The notes under the pieces: generated by a model
The model's database searches: none
What the model was told of the DNA's origin: nothing
The model's input: the letters and a program-made list of their open reading frames with translations, nothing else
Shown here: in pieces, positions 40,566-49,205 of the stretch
Layout of the letters: every line of letters starts with the position of its first letter
Numbering within the stretch: the stretch's first letter is position 1
Position numbers and translations under genes: made by a program
DNA from: Rhodobacterales bacterium RIFCSPHIGHO2_02_FULL_62_130
GTDB taxonomy: Bacteria > Pseudomonadota > Alphaproteobacteria > Rhodobacterales > Rhodobacteraceae
NCBI GenBank assembly: GCA_001828855.1
Contig: MHZT01000048.1
Location: 1 to 64,000, forward strand
DNA length: 64,000 nt
Direction of reading: 5' to 3'

Positions 40566-43487
40566 ATGCGCTTGGCGGCGACGATGGCGGTTTTGATGAT
40601 GCTGGGCGCGCCCGCTATCGGCCAAGAGATGACCGCAACCGAAGAGGCTGCCTACACCGCTTTGTGGCAGTTGACCCAGCAGGGCCAAGAGTTGCTGGCA
40701 GCCGGTGATCTGGCGGGGGCCGAGGCGGCATTTGCCGATGTCTTGGCTTTGGTTGAGCGGGATCTGCCCGACGAGGCACTGACACGGGCTGCGGCCTTGC
40801 ACAATCTGGCTGCGGTGCGCGCCGATCTGGGGCAGTTTGTTCAAGCCGAAGCGATGGCGCGTGCTGCCCTGGATATCCGGCGACGCCTGGGCGAGGCCGG
40901 TGCCATCGCCAGCTCCGAGCGGTTGCTGGGAACAATTCTGCACGATCTGGGGCAGTTGGACGAGGCGAGGGCGCTGATCGAGGCGTCGGTAGTGGCGCAG
41001 TTGAACGATGCCAATGTGCCGCGCGTTTCGCTGGAAAAGGATATGGCGGCATTGGCCGAACTTACGGCTTTGCTGGGCGATCCTGCGGCTGCCATGCAGA
41101 TTTTGGGGCAGCTGGAGCCGTATTTGCCGCAAATGACGCCTTCGCAGGCGGTGGCGGTCTATGCGGGGCTGGGTCGGGTTCAGTCCATTATGGGGCGGCC
41201 CGAACTGGCCGAGGCGGCTTACCGGCAGGTGTTGACGCTTTCGGCAGGGCTGGCCTTTGGCGCGGAATGGCGACCCCAAGATCAGGCGGTGGCACTGGGT
41301 AATCTTGGCACGATGTTGCTGCGTCAAGGCCGTGCCGCCGAGGCAGAGCCGCTGTTCCGGCAGGCGTTGACTGGCGCGCAAGGGGGGGCTGTCGCGGCGA
41401 ACTTGCTGGACGGGTTGGGGGCCGCTTTGGCTGCGCAGGGCGTCATGCAGGCCGCTTGGCAGGCGCAAAGGCAAGCCCTTGATCTGCGGTTGGCGGCTTT
41501 GCCCGAAGATCACCCTCAGGTCGCAGCCTCGTTTGCAACACTTGGTGCGACGCTGCTGCGCGCGGGCGAATTTGCAGTGGCGGAGCAGACATTGTCGCGG
41601 GCGGTCGCGTTGTTGGCGCAGCGGAATGATGGTCTGCGGCTGGCACGGGCGGCGCTAGCGCTGGGGGCGGCAGAAGCGGCGCTGGGCAAGCCGGGCTTCG
41701 CGCGGGCCAAGGCAGCTTTGGCCGATTTGCAGGCGATTCTGCCAAAGGACCATCCCGATCTGGTGCGGGCGGGGTTCTCGACGGCATGGCTCGGTTTGGC
41801 CGAGGGGCAAGCACCCGAAGCGTTGTCCCTTGCGCGGGTCGCCTTGGCGGGTTTTGCCGCGCAGGCGGGGCGGGTGGGCGCGGATGCCACCATTGCTGCC
41901 GCGCAAGAACCGGATATGCGGCGGCAGGTTCTGGCACTGGTCGATGCCGCCTATGAGGTGGACCCCGTCGGCCTGATGGACGAGGCGTTTCAGGCCGCGC
42001 AATGGGCCACCGCCAGCAAAGCCGCACGTGCGACGCGGCGCATGGTGGCGCGCTTTGCCAGCGAGGACGATGCCTTGGGGCAGGTGGTGCGGGCCAAACA
42101 GGATCTGGTCGATCTGTGGTCTGCCAAGGATGCCGAGTTGTTGGAAAGGCTGGCGCGCGGGGCGGATAGTGCGGCCGTTCAGGCCGAGATGGCACAGATC
42201 GACGCCCGGATCGCGCAAACCGAAGCCGCAATCCTGGCAGCCAATCCGCAATACGAGGCTTTGGTGTCAGAGCATGTTTTGACACTGGCCGAGACGCAGG
42301 CTTTGCTTGGTCCTGACGAGGCGCTTTTGATGATCGTGCCGGCGGTCGATGCCAGCTATGTTTTCGTGGTTTCGGCAACGGCGGCTGTGTGGCACCGGAC
42401 AGATCTGGGGCAAGAGGCGATGTCCTTGCAGATCAAGGCTTTGCGCGCCGATCTTGACCCCTCGCAGCAAACCCGCAGCGCTGCGGCCCTGACGGATGAC
42501 GCGCCCAAGACTGGCCCGAGTTTTGATCGTGGGACGGCTTTTGCGCTGTATCAAAGTCTGGTTGCGCCGGTACAGCCAGTGTTGACAGAGGCGTCGCGGG
42601 TGCTGGTGGTGGCCGATGGACCAATCGCATCCCTGCCGCTTGCGCTGCTTGTCGGGGCACAACCACAGGGGGATGACGGCGACCCGAAGGCGCTGACAGA
42701 TACCGAATGGTTGGCCAAGCGCTATGCCTTTGCCACGCTGCCGGGCGTGCAGAGTTTGGTGGGGCTGCGGGATCGTGTGGCCCCTTCGGATCGGGGTGGC
42801 TTTGCGGGCTTTGGGGCGCCGGATTTCGGTGGAACCTCGCAACCCGTTGCCTTGGCAGGATTTTTCGATGGCGCGCTTGCGCGTGCGGCGGCGCTGCAAG
42901 GGCTTGCGCCATTGCCCGCCACACGCACCGAACTCCGGGGTCTGGCGCGGGCGCTGGGGGCCGATGCGGCCGACCTGCGCCTTGGGGCAGACGCGACCGA
43001 AGCGGCGGTGCGCGGTGCTGATCTGTCAGAGGTTGCGGTGATTGCTTTTGCCACACATGGTTTGCTTGCAGGCGAGATTACGGGATTGGCCGAACCGGCG
43101 CTGGCCTTTACGCCGCCTGCCGTTCCAAGCCCGCTGGATGACGGGTTGCTAACCGCATCCGAGGCCGCGCGACTAAAGCTGCGGGCGGATTGGGTCATTC
43201 TGTCGGCCTGCAATACCGCCGCTGCGGATGGCACTCCGGGGGCCGAGGGGCTGTCGGGGCTGGCGCAGGCGTTTCTTTACGCGGGGGCGCGCGGGTTGTT
43301 GGTCAGCCATTGGCCGGTTCGCGACGATGCCGCCGCAGCGCTGACGCAAGCGGCGGTTGCGGCCAGAGGCAGGGGCGTCGGGCAGGCCGATGCGCTGCGA
43401 CGTTCGATGCTGGATCTGATGCAAAAACCCGGCATGGCGCATCCGATGGTGTGGGCACCGTTTGTGGTGGTGGGGGACGGTCGCTGA
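40566..43487 (+). CDS. Exported TPR-CHAT protein, caspase-like peptidase
   Basis: 973 residues: a signal peptide (MRLAATMAVLMMLGAPAIGQ), about 400 residues of degenerate TPR repeats (EAEAAFADVLAL, ALHNLAAVRADLGQFVQAEAMARAAL and similar), a helical linker (about 470-580), and a C-terminal CHAT domain. The catalytic pair is visible as His831 in FATHG and Cys882 in LSACNTA, followed by GLAQAFLYAGARGLLVSHWPV. CHAT is the separase/caspase-like peptidase clan. The signal peptide places it in the periplasm or outside. GAGGAGGG precedes the start. Substrate unknown. Confidence 0.88.
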   Translation: MRLAATMAVLMMLGAPAIGQEMTATEEAAYTALWQLTQQGQELLAAGDLAGAEAAFADVLALVERDLPDEALTRAAALHNLAAVRADLGQFVQAEAMARAALDIRRRLGEAGAIASSERLLGTILHDLGQLDEARALIEASVVAQLNDANVPRVSLEKDMAALAELTALLGDPAAAMQILGQLEPYLPQMTPSQAVAVYAGLGRVQSIMGRPELAEAAYRQVLTLSAGLAFGAEWRPQDQAVALGNLGTMLLRQGRAAEAEPLFRQALTGAQGGAVAANLLDGLGAALAAQGVMQAAWQAQRQALDLRLAALPEDHPQVAASFATLGATLLRAGEFAVAEQTLSRAVALLAQRNDGLRLARAALALGAAEAALGKPGFARAKAALADLQAILPKDHPDLVRAGFSTAWLGLAEGQAPEALSLARVALAGFAAQAGRVGADATIAAAQEPDMRRQVLALVDAAYEVDPVGLMDEAFQAAQWATASKAARATRRMVARFASEDDALGQVVRAKQDLVDLWSAKDAELLERLARGADSAAVQAEMAQIDARIAQTEAAILAANPQYEALVSEHVLTLAETQALLGPDEALLMIVPAVDASYVFVVSATAAVWHRTDLGQEAMSLQIKALRADLDPSQQTRSAAALTDDAPKTGPSFDRGTAFALYQSLVAPVQPVLTEASRVLVVADGPIASLPLALLVGAQPQGDDGDPKALTDTEWLAKRYAFATLPGVQSLVGLRDRVAPSDRGGFAGFGAPDFGGTSQPVALAGFFDGALARAAALQGLAPLPATRTELRGLARALGADAADLRLGADATEAAVRGADLSEVAVIAFATHGLLAGEITGLAEPALAFTPPAVPSPLDDGLLTASEAARLKLRADWVILSACNTAAADGTPGAEGLSGLAQAFLYAGARGLLVSHWPVRDDAAAALTQAAVAARGRGVGQADALRRSMLDLMQKPGMAHPMVWAPFVVVGDGR

Positions 43488-43528: not shown

Positions 43529-43572
43529 CGTCAAAAAACTGTCAGCCCAGCGTCACACGCGGCCCCTAGCTA
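43529..43572 (+). promoter_or_regulatory. Pho-box-like array and -10 for the ABC operon
   Basis: The pentamer CGTCA/TGTCA occurs at 43529, 43540 and 43551, an exact 11-bp period. The last two form CTGTCAG-N4-GCGTCAC (43539-43556), close to the PhoB consensus of two CTGTCAT-like units with 4 bp between. A -10-like TAGCTA (43567-43572) begins 10 bp after the array, the classical PhoB distance. No normal -35 is present. Confidence 0.6.
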
Positions 43573-44867: not shown

Positions 44868-45740
44868 ATGTCCCAATCCTTGCCACCTCGGCGCAGCCTG
44901 CCCTTGGCCACATGGGCGGGGGTGGTGCCGTTCTTTGCCTTTGCCCTGCTGTTTCTGATCCTGCCCACCGGATATATCGTGCTGGGCGCATTTCGGGACT
45001 GGACGGGCGGCTTTACGCTGTCGAACATCGCGGGGCTGTGGCAGGGGCCGATCCTGAAGGCGCTGTCGCTTTCCTTGCAGCTTAGTCTGCTGACAGCGGT
45101 TCTGGGCTGTGCTGCGGGTCTTGGCATTGCCGCTGCCGTTACAAAAGGTGGTCTGCCCGCTCCGCTGCGGGCAATCACGATGACCTTTTCGGGTGTCGCG
45201 TCGAACTTTGCCGGTGTGCCTCTGGCCTTTGCCTTTATCGCCACGCTTGGGCGGCTGGGTCTTGTCACGGTGCTGCTGCGCGATCTGTTCGGCATCAACC
45301 TGATGGCAAGCGGTTTCAATCTGATCAGCTTTACCGGCCTGACGCTGGCCTATCTTTATTTCCAGATTCCGCTGATGGTGCTGATCATCACGCCTGCGCT
45401 GGACGGGTTGCGCCGCGACTGGCGCGAGGCTGCCGAAAGCCTTGGTGCTACGGGTGGGCAATATTGGCGGCTGGTGGCGCTGCCGGTGCTGTGGCCTGCG
45501 ATCCTTGGCACCTTTGCGCTGCTGTTTGCCAATGCCTTTGGCGCGGTGGCCACGGCGATGGCGCTGACGGGATCGTCCCTGTCACTGCTGCCGATCATCC
45601 TGTTCGCGCAGATCCGCGGCGATGTGCTGCAAGACCCGCATCTGGGCTATGCCGTGGCCTTTGGCATGATTGTGATCACGGGGCTTTCGAACCTTGCCTA
45701 TGTGTTGCTGCGCGCCCGCGCCGAAAGGGGGCAGAAATGA
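44868..45740 (+). CDS. ABC transporter permease 1
   Basis: 290 residues, about six membrane helices; the EAA-type coupling loop reads DWREAAESLGATGGQYWRLVALPVLWPAILGTF. It belongs to the spermidine/iron/phosphonate permease group. It overlaps the second permease by 4 bp and starts 16 nt after the terminator-like hairpin. Confidence 0.9.
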   Translation: MSQSLPPRRSLPLATWAGVVPFFAFALLFLILPTGYIVLGAFRDWTGGFTLSNIAGLWQGPILKALSLSLQLSLLTAVLGCAAGLGIAAAVTKGGLPAPLRAITMTFSGVASNFAGVPLAFAFIATLGRLGLVTVLLRDLFGINLMASGFNLISFTGLTLAYLYFQIPLMVLIITPALDGLRRDWREAAESLGATGGQYWRLVALPVLWPAILGTFALLFANAFGAVATAMALTGSSLSLLPIILFAQIRGDVLQDPHLGYAVAFGMIVITGLSNLAYVLLRARAERGQK

Positions 45741-46525
45741 AGCCTGCACGTTTGACCGCATGGATCGGCTTTGGTCTTGGCACCGCGTTCTTTCTGCTGC
45801 CGCTTATCGGCACGGTCGAGTTTTCGCTGCGCGCACGGCGCGGTGTCTATTCGCTGGACGCCTACCGCAACGTCATCACCGACCCGCAATTCCATCAGAC
45901 ACTGGGCTATTCCGCGATCCTGTCGGTGCTGACGGTGATTCTTGGCGCGCTGATCGTCGCCCCCACGGCGTTCTGGGTGCGGCTGAAGCTGCCGCGCCTG
46001 CGGCCGGTGGTCGAGTTTATCACCCTGCTACCCTTGGTGATCCCGCCCATTGTGATCGTGTTCGGTTATATCCGCATGTATAACACCTCATCCCTGCTGC
46101 CTCTGACCGGCACCTCGCTTGGCACCGATCTGCTGCTGACCTGCGGTTATGCCACGCTGTCGCTGCCCTATATGTACCGCGCCATCGACACCGGCCTGCG
46201 AACGCTGGACATCCGCGCGCTGACCGAGGCCGCGCAATCGCTGGGCGCGGGCTGGGGTATCATTCTGGTGCGGGTGATTCTACCCAATCTGACGGTGGCC
46301 ATCCTGTCGGGAGCCTTCCTGACCTTTGCCATTGTGATCGGCGAATATGTGCTGGCGGCCCTGCTGAACCGTCCTGCCTTCGGACCGTGGATGGTCTGGA
46401 TGGGCGGCAACCGCGCCTATGAACCTGCCGCCCTTGCCGTCATGGCCTTTGCCCTGACTTGGGGCGCGATGGGGCTGATCCAACTTTTGTCCCGCTTTTC
46501 CCCTTCCAGACAGGCTGCGCGCTGA
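45737..46525 (+). CDS. ABC transporter permease 2
   Basis: 262 residues with six helices and the coupling loop ALTEAAQSLGAGWGIILVRVILPNLTVAILSGAFLTF. The ATG at 45737 overlaps the stop of permease 1 (ATGA). It ends in a 1-base overlap with the ATPase gene (TGATG), so the three are translated as a unit. Confidence 0.9.
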   Translation: MKPARLTAWIGFGLGTAFFLLPLIGTVEFSLRARRGVYSLDAYRNVITDPQFHQTLGYSAILSVLTVILGALIVAPTAFWVRLKLPRLRPVVEFITLLPLVIPPIVIVFGYIRMYNTSSLLPLTGTSLGTDLLLTCGYATLSLPYMYRAIDTGLRTLDIRALTEAAQSLGAGWGIILVRVILPNLTVAILSGAFLTFAIVIGEYVLAALLNRPAFGPWMVWMGGNRAYEPAALAVMAFALTWGAMGLIQLLSRFSPSRQAAR

Positions 46526-47595
46526 TGCCCTTTATCACCTTGACCGACCTTCAGAAATCTTTCGCCAATACCCGTGTGGTGAAGGATTTTTCCCTGACCT
46601 TGGAGAAGGGCGAGTTTGTGTCGCTGCTTGGCCCTTCGGGCTGCGGCAAAACCACTGTGCTGCGGATGGTTGCGGGTTTCGAAACCGAAGATCGCGGCGA
46701 GATCCGCATTGACGGGCAGTCAATGGCGGGCCTTGGACCGCGACAGCGCAAGATCGGCATGGTGTTCCAAAGCTATGCGCTGTTTCCCAACCTTACCGTT
46801 GCCGAAAACGTAGCTTTCGGGCTGCGGGTGGCCGGTGTGGCGCGCGATGAAACCAGCCGCCGCGTTGATGAAATGCTTGAGATGGTGGGGCTGTCCGGCT
46901 TTGCGGCGCGCTATCCGTGGCAACTGTCGGGCGGCCAGCAACAACGGGTTGCCTTGGCCCGCGCCATCGCCCCGCGCCCGCGCGTGCTGCTGCTGGACGA
47001 GCCGCTGTCGGCCCTGGACGCCAAGATCCGTGTGGCACTGCGGTCCGAGATTCGCGCCATCCAGCGTGCCTTGGGCATCACGACGCTGTTCGTGACGCAT
47101 GATCAGGAAGAGGCGCTGGGCATGTCGGACCGTGTGGTCGTGATGCATGATGGCCGGGCCGAGCAGATTGGCACCCCTGCCGCAGTTTATGACACCCCCG
47201 CCACCCGCTTTGTCGCGGGCTTTATCGGCACGCTTAATCTGGTCGAGGCACAGGTGGCCGATGCCAGCACGGGGCGGCTGACCTCTTCGCTTGGGCCTGT
47301 CAGCCTTGATCGCGTGATTCCCGCAAGAGACGGCCAAAGTGTCACCCTTGCGATCCGTCCGCAGGCAATGGACCTGCATGCCACTGGCGCGGCTTTGCCA
47401 TCTGGCCATATCGCCCTGCCAGCCATACTTCAGAACGTGGAATTTCTTGGCTCGATCCTGCGGATACAGGCCCAGATCGGGCCGCAGACTCTGCTTGTTG
47501 ACCGTTTCAACCGCGACACAACCAACCTTCCCGCTTTGGGGCAGATGTTGAACCTGTCGGTTGCGGCAAAGGATGTCGTCCTGCTGAACGCGTGA
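46525..47595 (+). CDS. ABC transporter ATP-binding protein
   Basis: 356 residues: Walker A GPSGCGKTT near 37-45, Q-loop VFQSYALFPNLTV, signature [15 protein letters not shown], Walker B VLLLDEPLSALD, H-loop VTHDQEEALGMSD, and a C-terminal TOBE region from about 260 (SVTLAIRPQAMDL). This is the PotA/FbpC/PhnT type. A weak 6-bp hairpin (AAGCGG/CCGCTT, 47596-47613) follows the stop and may also end the convergent tRNA transcript. Confidence 0.93.
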   Translation: MPFITLTDLQKSFANTRVVKDFSLTLEKGEFVSLLGPSGCGKTTVLRMVAGFETEDRGEIRIDGQSMAGLGPRQRKIGMVFQSYALFPNLTVAENVAFGLRVAGVARDETSRRVDEMLEMVGLSGFAARYPWQLSGGQQQRVALARAIAPRPRVLLLDEPLSALDAKIRVALRSEIRAIQRALGITTLFVTHDQEEALGMSDRVVVMHDGRAEQIGTPAAVYDTPATRFVAGFIGTLNLVEAQVADASTGRLTSSLGPVSLDRVIPARDGQSVTLAIRPQAMDLHATGAALPSGHIALPAILQNVEFLGSILRIQAQIGPQTLLVDRFNRDTTNLPALGQMLNLSVAAKDVVLLNA

Positions 47596-47643: not shown

Positions 47644-47720
47644 TGGTGGACCCAGAGCGATTCGAACGCCCGACCCTCAGATTCGTAGTCTGATGCTCTA
47701 TCCAGCTGAGCTATGGATCC
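47644..47720 (-). tRNA. tRNA-Arg (anticodon ACG)
   Basis: A 77-nt cloverleaf: acceptor GGATCCA with TGGGTCC (one G-U pair), D-arm AGCTCAGCTGGATAGAGC, anticodon arm TCAGA-CTACGAA-TCTGA with ACG, T-arm GGGCG-TTCGAAT-CGCTC, and an encoded CCA end. ACG (probably edited to ICG) reads CGU, CGC and CGA. It has its own predicted promoter. Confidence 0.96.
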
Positions 47721-47777: not shown

Positions 47778-49205
47778 TTATGCAGGTTCTGCCGGACCTT
47801 GAGCTTTTGGCAGGCGGAGCAGGAATTCCGTGCCTTCGCTGTCAGAGCGTGCAAGCTCCAGAATGCCGCCATGTCCGCGCACCAGTTCGGCGGCGATGGC
47901 AAGCCCAAGTCCGGTGCCGCCCTTGCGTGCGCCGCCCTGAAACGCCTCGAACAGATGCTCGCGCGCCTTTTCCGGCAGACCGGGGCCAGTGTCGCCAATG
48001 CGAATCCACCATTCGACGGGGTTTTCCCCGGCGCTGATTTCAATCGTGCCGCCTGTGCCGGTTGCTTCGATTGCCTGCCGCGCGTTGCGGATCAGGTTGG
48101 ACAGGACGCGGAACAACTGTTCGCCATCCGCGCGCAGAACCATGCCTTGCGGCACTTCGATCAGGCAGGTCACATCGCCGTCGCCTGCCAATCCCTCCGC
48201 CTCGGCCACATCGTCAACCAACGCCGAAAGATCGACGGGGCGCAGGGTGGGGGGCGGCTCTTCTGCCTTCCCGAAGGTCAGCGTTGATTCGCACAAGGAC
48301 ACCGCGCGCGAGATCGAGGCGACCAGCTTGGGCGCTGCCCGTGCCACGACGGGATCGGCGCTGCTTTCGATGCGGTCGGCAAAAAGCTGGGCGGTGGACA
48401 GGATATTCCGCAGATCATGACTGATCTTGGCCACAGCACCGCCAAGCTGGGCCAGCCGTTCCTTTTGCTTCAGCGAGCCGGTCAGCTGCTGCTGCATGCT
48501 TTGCATCGCCTCTTCTGCGGCACGCAGCTCCATCACCTTGGCCGTTGGGGCGATCACGCGGCGGGCGTCCTCGGGGGCCTCGGCATAGGCCTTCATGTGC
48601 AGCACCACGCGGCGGATCGGCAGAACGATCAGGCGCTGCACGGCCAGAAATAGGAAGAAAGCCGTCACAACCGAGATCAGCGCCGACAAAAACAGGATTC
48701 GCACACCGTAATCCAGCATGGCATGACGCAGCGGGGTGGCCTCCATGGTGATTTCGATCAGCAGGCCTGCCTGCTGCACCGGAGAGCCGATCACGCGGAT
48801 AATCTGCTCGCCGGGATCGGCAAGACAAATGAAGGCATCACGGATCAATTCCCACGGACCAGCCTCGCGCAGATCGAAAGTGTCCGAAATCGGATGGGGA
48901 ATTTCCGAAGATAGCACCAATTGCCGCACCTCGTCGCGGCGCAGCACGACGTTGTACACCTCGGCATTGGCAAGCAGTTCCTTTTCCAGCGCCGGAGTCA
49001 CCATATCTTCGGCTGCAAGCTGGGCCAAAGCTGCAATCTGGGCCTTTTCCAGCCGCATCGTCAGGAAATCGGCACGGAATCGGGCAATCGAGGGAACAAA
49101 GATCAGCACCTCGGTCAGCATGACAAAACCGATTGTCAGCATCAGGAACCGCCCCGACAGGGTGTTCAGAAATCCGCCCCGCCTGACTGCCACGCCTTTT
49201 GTCAT
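47778..49205 (-). CDS. Sensor histidine kinase (orphan)
   Basis: 475 residues: membrane helices at about 18-40 and 168-190 flank a 125-residue periplasmic sensor; a short HAMP-like stretch follows, then the H-box KISHDLRNILS with phosphoacceptor His263, N-box NLIRNARQAI (Asn374), DTGPGLP and GGTGLGLAIA. No response regulator gene is adjacent. It may sense envelope conditions; the signal is unknown. Confidence 0.9.
   Translation of the reverse strand: MTKGVAVRRGGFLNTLSGRFLMLTIGFVMLTEVLIFVPSIARFRADFLTMRLEKAQIAALAQLAAEDMVTPALEKELLANAEVYNVVLRRDEVRQLVLSSEIPHPISDTFDLREAGPWELIRDAFICLADPGEQIIRVIGSPVQQAGLLIEITMEATPLRHAMLDYGVRILFLSALISVVTAFFLFLAVQRLIVLPIRRVVLHMKAYAEAPEDARRVIAPTAKVMELRAAEEAMQSMQQQLTGSLKQKERLAQLGGAVAKISHDLRNILSTAQLFADRIESSADPVVARAAPKLVASISRAVSLCESTLTFGKAEEPPPTLRPVDLSALVDDVAEAEGLAGDGDVTCLIEVPQGMVLRADGEQLFRVLSNLIRNARQAIEATGTGGTIEISAGENPVEWWIRIGDTGPGLPEKAREHLFEAFQGGARKGGTGLGLAIAAELVRGHGGILELARSDSEGTEFLLRLPKAQGPAEPA

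Follow-up and report, generated by a model that had tools for sequence, protein, structure and literature searches.

The 64,000-nucleotide (nt) stretch analysed here, referred to as the window, comprises positions 1 to 64,000 of contig MHZT01000048.1 from Rhodobacterales bacterium RIFCSPHIGHO2_02_FULL_62_130, and it carries an array of three GTCA-type units upstream of a four-gene ATP-binding cassette (ABC) importer operon. From comparison with related genomes we infer PhoB binding, induction at low phosphate and the class of ligand, and we have good confidence in the reading that the array is a Pho box from which phosphorylated PhoB (PhoB~P) drives an operon importing a phosphorus compound. 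In the proposed mechanism the tandem 11-bp half-sites would be bound head to tail by PhoB~P, the array would stand in for the -35 element, and TAGCTA would serve as the -10 element of the promoter. Under phosphate starvation PhoB~P would recruit RNA polymerase and turn on the genes for the binding protein, two permeases and ATPase, and the importer would take up a small phosphorus compound, most likely a phosphonate or a phosphomonoester.

The YGTCA units start at 43529 (C-GTCA), 43540 (T-GTCA) and 43551 (C-GTCA), with GTCA cores at 43530, 43541 and 43552, and direct reading bears out the exact 11-bp period that had been reported from the letters alone (the sequence-only reading). The second and third units are arranged as CTGTCAG (43539-43545), CCCA (43546-43549) and GCGTCAC (43550-43556). 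A Pho box replaces the -35 element, with a -10 element about 10 nt downstream; the gap between the third heptamer and TAGCTA is 10 bp, and the -10-like hexamer lies where the sequence-only reading had placed it. By the definition used here, a Pho box has two or more 11-nt direct repeats whose TGTCA-type heptamer is conserved, with CTGTCAT as the E. coli core (PMC4415409); the window has three such units in exact period. The strict three-unit pattern YGTCA-N6-BGTCA-N6-BGTCA occurs in the 4,970,223-base genome once on the forward strand and never on the reverse, and its reversed control occurs on neither. Of the four GTCA-N7-GTCA matches on the window's + strand, two are inside the array. A degenerate two-unit pattern, TGTYACNNNNCNGTYRC, was also searched genome-wide and dropped as uninformative, as its seven matches were hardly above the six of its reversed control.

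The upstream regions of orthologous importers carry the same element. From named genomes the 80 best of 477 relatives, chiefly Rhodobacteraceae and Rhizobiaceae, were taken as orthologues, and 394 sampled family genomes added 29 further importer loci; the resulting 110 upstream regions (109 plus the window), less two that were too short and ten that were redundant, left 98 for a simple expectation-maximisation motif search, with order-1 randomised sets as controls. The motif found de novo was CTGTCACA.AACTGTCACa.g.c.cc.CTA, a classical Pho box plus the TA of a -10 element. Scores of at least 15 bits were reached by 76 of the 98 promoters and of at least 12 bits by 82 (both in-sample), compared with 0-1 of 98 at 15 bits in four randomised sets. 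The log-likelihood of the motif was 797, against 113-145 for the best of five randomised sets searched with equal effort and 123-131 for sets searched from fewer starting points than the real run. The motif persists when the window and the clade whose importers are linked to MocR genes are left out (67/86 at 12 bits or more).

A held-out matrix was built from 90 regions, excluding the window and its close relatives L009-L015. Its two top positions in the 64 kb, both strands considered, are in the array (15.6 bits at 43540 and 11.6 bits at 43529), the third-best position in the window scoring 8.1 bits; a score of 15.6 bits was reached nowhere in 4 Mb of order-1 random sequence, scanned on one strand. 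The register at 43540 attains this score only with the spacer and the -10 element added. With the 17-bp half-site core alone, units one and two (43529) score 17.3 bits, the top of the + strand, and the best on the - strand is 10.1 bits. Of the eight held-out promoters, six score 10 bits or more. The 11 same-genus loci other than the window gave ten scored promoters, L178 having no upstream sequence; nine scored 10.8-20.0 bits and one (L179) 9.4 bits, and among the nine same-genus promoters compared at most 4% of 8-mers were common to any training promoter. Six of the eight plasmid-borne copies examined, out of 327 plasmid records with a match, scored at least 12 bits, one of the eight being a 50%-identical paralogue.

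The motif also transfers between clades. When derived from 43 Rhodobacteraceae-grouped promoters it reached at least 10 bits in 15 of 18 RpiR-linked rhizobial, 10 of 11 Paracoccus and 10 of 11 MocR-linked promoters, the randomised mean being 0.0-0.1; seven of the 98 promoters lie outside all four groups. Training on single smaller groups behaved differently: RpiR-linked promoters returned a motif resembling the coding sequence of the upstream gene and MocR-linked promoters their own conserved promoter, neither of which transferred, and the 11 Paracoccus sequences gave transfer to 7/51 Rhodobacteraceae, 0/18 RpiR-linked and 0/11 MocR-linked promoters. In the MocR-linked clade the assignment of the TTGTTGTCCAATTGTTACAT sites as Pho boxes is doubtful; they may instead represent a MocR operator. 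Conservation before orthologous genes, a further mark of a Pho box, is seen in the counts at 15 bits, in the cross-clade transfer and in the same-genus promoters (9/10 at 10.8 bits or more).

The genome encodes PhoB (340.3 bits against an NCBIfam cut-off of 296.2), with a PhoU gene directly before it. In the 16 kb around phoU-phoB the best site of the held-out matrix (L185:6191, 14.2 bits) is a tandem array located 100 bp upstream of the first open reading frame (ORF) in the operon whose last genes are phoU-phoB. The first four genes of this operon are called pst by gene order rather than by family search; pstS was not found in the source genome by the TIGR00975 profile, and the operon was located via PhoU and PhoB. 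Matches of at least 12 bits occur in 19 of 30 phnG loci of relatives, many of them from one genus and so not independent, at a density of 109 per Mb of strand, compared with 6.4 in importer loci downstream of the importer start. In the source genome a near-palindromic pair of Pho-box-like sites (15.5 and 10.9 bits) lies about 5 kb behind phnG (L170, 12395-12412). Since the box, the 11-bp phase and the TA are conserved, and the motif also stands at phoU-phoB and phn loci, the phosphate-starvation control proposed by the sequence-only reading appears well supported, and control of the importer operon by PhoB is very likely.

The importer had been described as a family-1 type, which does not hold: the best Pfam family of its binding protein is SBP_bac_6 (PF13343, 88.1 bits against a gathering cut-off of 24.6), and family 1 (PF01547) scores 41.7 bits. 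The Pfam search gave no PF12974 match in the binding protein. The ATPase scores 409.3 bits with TIGR03265 (PhnT2) against a cut-off of 457.7 (longer ORF). The binding protein clearly misses the PhnS and phnS2 equivalog cut-offs (51 against 395.3 and 39.2 against 392.75), so the importer is not filed as a 2-aminoethylphosphonate (AEP) importer.

An AlphaFold model of the binding protein (47 orthologues) has a mean predicted local distance difference test score of 84.9. Ranked by E-value, its Foldseek matches are the Campylobacter jejuni structure 5t1p, then PhnS (4r6y), P5PA (6wce), PotF variants, MctA and glucose 6-phosphate binders of the AfuA type, with E-values close together after 5t1p. 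The phosphate anchors Thr37 and Ser147 of P5PA (PMC8427247) map to S81 and S186, and its Tyr103 to Y145, by profile alignment with positions counted by hand. Residue 81 is Ser or Thr and residue 186 is Ser in all 47 orthologues; the third anchor, P5PA S183, maps to a loop that cannot be aligned confidently. When the protein is compared with AfuA, the Ser/Thr phosphate anchors are present and the His205-Asp206 pair of the sugar pocket is absent, its place being taken by Y248-N249 (aligned via P5PA H203; Y in 46/47, N in 47/47). Given this replacement, the ligand probably differs from that of AfuA in its organic part.

Gene neighbourhood also points to phosphorus compounds. The importer is present in 11 of 15 same-genus genomes and lies 7.0-7.7 kb from phnG in six of the 11; the remaining five have importer and phnG on separate contigs or gave no phnG match. 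Gene-by-gene reading of one locus (L169) shows the importer divergent from phnC, phnD and phnE, all three of which score above curated cut-offs; phnM scores 377.6 against 253 (NF011987), but 255.8 against 390.55 (TIGR02318). A phn hexapeptide transferase gene is nearby, and the intergenic region between importer and phnC has box-like sites on both strands. Across the 394 family genomes the importer (at least 45% identity) was found in 63 and phnG in 199, two of the latter scoring below the phnG family cut-off. PhnG is present in 43 of the 63 importer genomes and in 156 of the 331 others (Fisher p 0.0024, phylogeny ignored). In the wider family the coordinates listed include, besides G247, at least one 45%-identical copy at roughly 30 kb from phnG (G321).

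Flanking genes were compared in the 109 relative loci, the flank being limited to about 1.5 kb in 29 of them: the operon stands behind RpiR/SIS regulators in 21, beside MocR in 15 and with a TIM-barrel protein in 14, one member of each cluster having been typed. Judged by position, 11 loci have a protein resembling the one of the inositol-monophosphatase family in L124, which is itself nearest HisN (251.9 bits, cut-off 275.15). These neighbours are enzymes and regulators of phosphorylated compounds and are no proof of the ligand. TIM-barrel and inositol-monophosphatase-family genes follow the importer in L124 (11958-13768) and L125 (11900-13737), and in both a divergent gene of the pyridoxal phosphate (PLP)-dependent aminotransferase family (MocR-like) lies upstream of it. 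In Sinorhizobium meliloti (L127, 7974-17059) a 50%-identical importer with a box-like site of 13.5 bits is upstream of genes for an NTP-transferase, a GHMP kinase and a CDP-alcohol phosphatidyltransferase, which looks like a biosynthesis cluster for a phospho-compound.

Several findings weigh against the reading of a Pho box before a phosphorus-compound importer. Conservation is not universal, as 22 of the 98 promoters score below 15 bits and 16 below 12; two of the held-out promoters of the window clade score 0.8 (L012) and 7.3 bits (L010), and the plasmid copies of Caballeronia and Terrarubrum 1.5 and 9.6 bits. Strict or relaxed two-unit GTCA patterns were found in only 6 of 109 upstream regions, with 12 loci then on the wrong strand. 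The preferred register of the array varies by matrix, other training sets favouring 43529 or 43542. The second and third units, which the sequence-only reading took as a near-consensus Pho box, have the letters described, but by the 17-bp core alone (43540) they are weak and not rare, at 7.8 bits. In the source genome the importer and phnG are on different contigs, and 20 of the 63 importer genomes show no phnG. By query template modelling score (TM-score), the polyamine binder PotF (up to 0.69) equals or exceeds PhnS (0.62) and P5PA (0.63), with metal-citrate binders at 0.62-0.67, and the residue mapping depends on distant profile alignments.

Some of these points can be accounted for. Strict letter matching seemed negative because the box is degenerate, with units such as TGTTAC, CTTCAT and TGTCGC, and because of the loci on the wrong strand. 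Conservation in orthologues, the proposed check on the array, is accordingly absent letter for letter and present for the box, its 11-bp phase and the downstream TA, far above randomised sets. One three-unit array with the -10 element after the third unit is the likeliest reading of the registers. The importer genomes without phnG indicate that carbon-phosphorus lyase is not required.

A phosphorus-containing ligand is likely on these comparisons. Of the substrates suggested by the sequence-only reading, a phosphonate or phosphoester gains from the phn neighbourhood in sister species and from the phosphate anchors, while nothing specific favours a metal complex, which keeps a small share of the probability because metal-citrate binders have the same fold. 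That the operon is PhoB-controlled and the ligand is a metal chelate or polyamine-like compound is, in our view, unlikely. PotF variants and the metal-citrate binder MctA are among the Foldseek matches, several sequence matches are named Fe3+ substrate-binding proteins, and PhoB is described as regulating iron responses in a cyanobacterium (PMC11126600). The retained anchors and the phn genes beside the sister-species importers argue the other way, as does the Foldseek E-value ranking, in which PhnS and P5PA come narrowly before PotF and MctA; the TM-score order does not show this.

Binding of the array by another OmpR-family regulator that recognises an 11-bp direct repeat, notably CenR, is very unlikely. 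The CenR motif given for Rhodobacter, TGA-N8-TGA (PMC9275681), can be read on the reverse strand of the GTCA-N7-GTCA array. It is a loose pattern, matched elsewhere too: the window's + strand has nine copies of TCA-N8-TCA and 15 of TGA-N8-TGA. TCA-N8-TCA is in register in only 19 of the 78 orthologous sites of at least 12 bits, so it lacks the conservation expected of the binding site. The orthologous boxes also accept T for the motif C in both half-sites (weights 0.17 and 0.32 in the 100-region matrix; TGTTAC units), which the CenR motif disallows, the full motif recurs at the phoU-phoB operon and phn loci, and the distance to the -10 element suits replacement of a -35 element. The poor conservation of the strict letters and the frequency of degenerate two-unit matches could be cited for a chance match without regulatory function, but the held-out scores, the cross-clade transfer and the randomised controls make this highly improbable.

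The features of the element and the operon are collected in Table 1.

Table 1. The array, the -10-like element and the importer genes, in coordinates of the window.
Feature	Coordinates	Strand	Basis
Three 11-bp Pho-box units (putative), CGTCAAA AAAC TGTCAGC CCAG CGTCAC	43529..43556	+	Direct reading; matrix scan
-10-like TAGCTA	43567..43572	+	Sequence; TA here also in de novo orthologue motif
Periplasmic substrate-binding protein, PF13343 (AfuA/PhnS-like), 372 aa	43681..44799	+	Pfam, AlphaFold, Foldseek
ABC permease 1	44868..45740	+	PF00528
ABC permease 2; ATG 45737 overlaps permease 1 stop	45737..46525	+	PF00528 on longer ORF (TTG 45464)
ABC ATPase, PhnT2-like, below PhnT2 cut-off; ATG start 46525 (ORF list: TTG 46459)	46525..47595	+	TIGR03265

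The start of permease 2 was also set by analogy with the orthologue L120. A gene for a 973-aa TPR-CHAT protein (40566-43487) ends about 40 bp before the array. Directly behind the operon is a tRNA-Arg gene (anticodon ACG, 47644-47720, minus strand), a possible landing site, and a histidine kinase gene (HisKA and HATPase_c, 47778-49205) is convergent with the importer. The window binding protein is 84-89% identical to those of L009-L014 (Gemmobacter straminiformis and metagenome-assembled Rhodobacteraceae genomes) and only 65-70% identical to the copies of its own genus (L171-L177), of which L172-L177 are near phnG; one genome (G394) has two importer copies. Separate acquisition of the window copy is a possibility.

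The regulatory element is canonical, and the assignment of this uncharacterised PF13343 importer family to the Pho regulon appears to be new as far as the literature searched shows: no paper naming the importer or its Pho box was found in the open-licence literature searched, and an earlier mention elsewhere is possible. A common importer, found in 63 of the 394 family genomes and with orthologues in many rhizobia, is thereby tied to the phosphate-starvation response, and the Pho link narrows its substrate to a testable class. We see roughly even chances for a wider proposal, in which the operon belongs to a widespread family of PhoB-controlled importers of Rhodobacterales and Rhizobiales with a specificity of its own (anchors kept, Tyr-Asn for His-Asp), taking up a phosphonate or phosphate ester outside the known AEP, hexose-phosphate, PLP and glycerol-phosphate systems. 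If true, it would supply a missing phosphorus-scavenging step in soil and aquatic Alphaproteobacteria.

Among known systems, the array is like the Pho boxes of the PhoB regulon in E. coli and S. meliloti in preceding a -10 element, and in this clade the motif is shared with phn loci and the phoU-phoB operon; no essential difference was seen, the window units deviating locally from the consensus and the -10 region being G+C-rich. The glycerol-phosphate binders GpxB and UgpB serve phosphate-ester ABC importers in Rhodobacteraceae; GpxB is assigned to the PhnD-type PhnT family and UgpB to CUT1 (PMC12718374), and the window protein has no PF12974 match. The AEP importers PhnSTUV and AepXVW have a binding protein of the same family as the window importer, AepX and PhnS both being placed in pfam13343 (PMC8316502); PhnS (4r6y) is a top fold match and the ATPase is nearest PhnT2, and the window importer falls below the PhnS, phnS2 and PhnT2 cut-offs. 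In Pseudomonas putida BIRD-1 the induction of AepX on phosphate depletion depends on PhoBR (PMC8316502), a precedent for the control proposed here.

The closest solved structure is C. jejuni 5t1p (30-31% identity, target TM-score up to 0.91), titled only 'putative periplasmic solute-binding protein'. 5t1p may come from a PhosR-controlled locus of C. jejuni. In Campylobacter colonising the chick, genes for ABC binding proteins are described as induced alongside pst (PMC3749233); 5t1p may be linked to these. AfuA (hexose phosphates) and P5PA (PLP) share the fold and the anchor positions, T37/S37 corresponding to S81, S147/S148 to S186 and the ring-binding Y103 to Y145. The window protein differs from AfuA in having Y248-N249 where AfuA has H205-D206.
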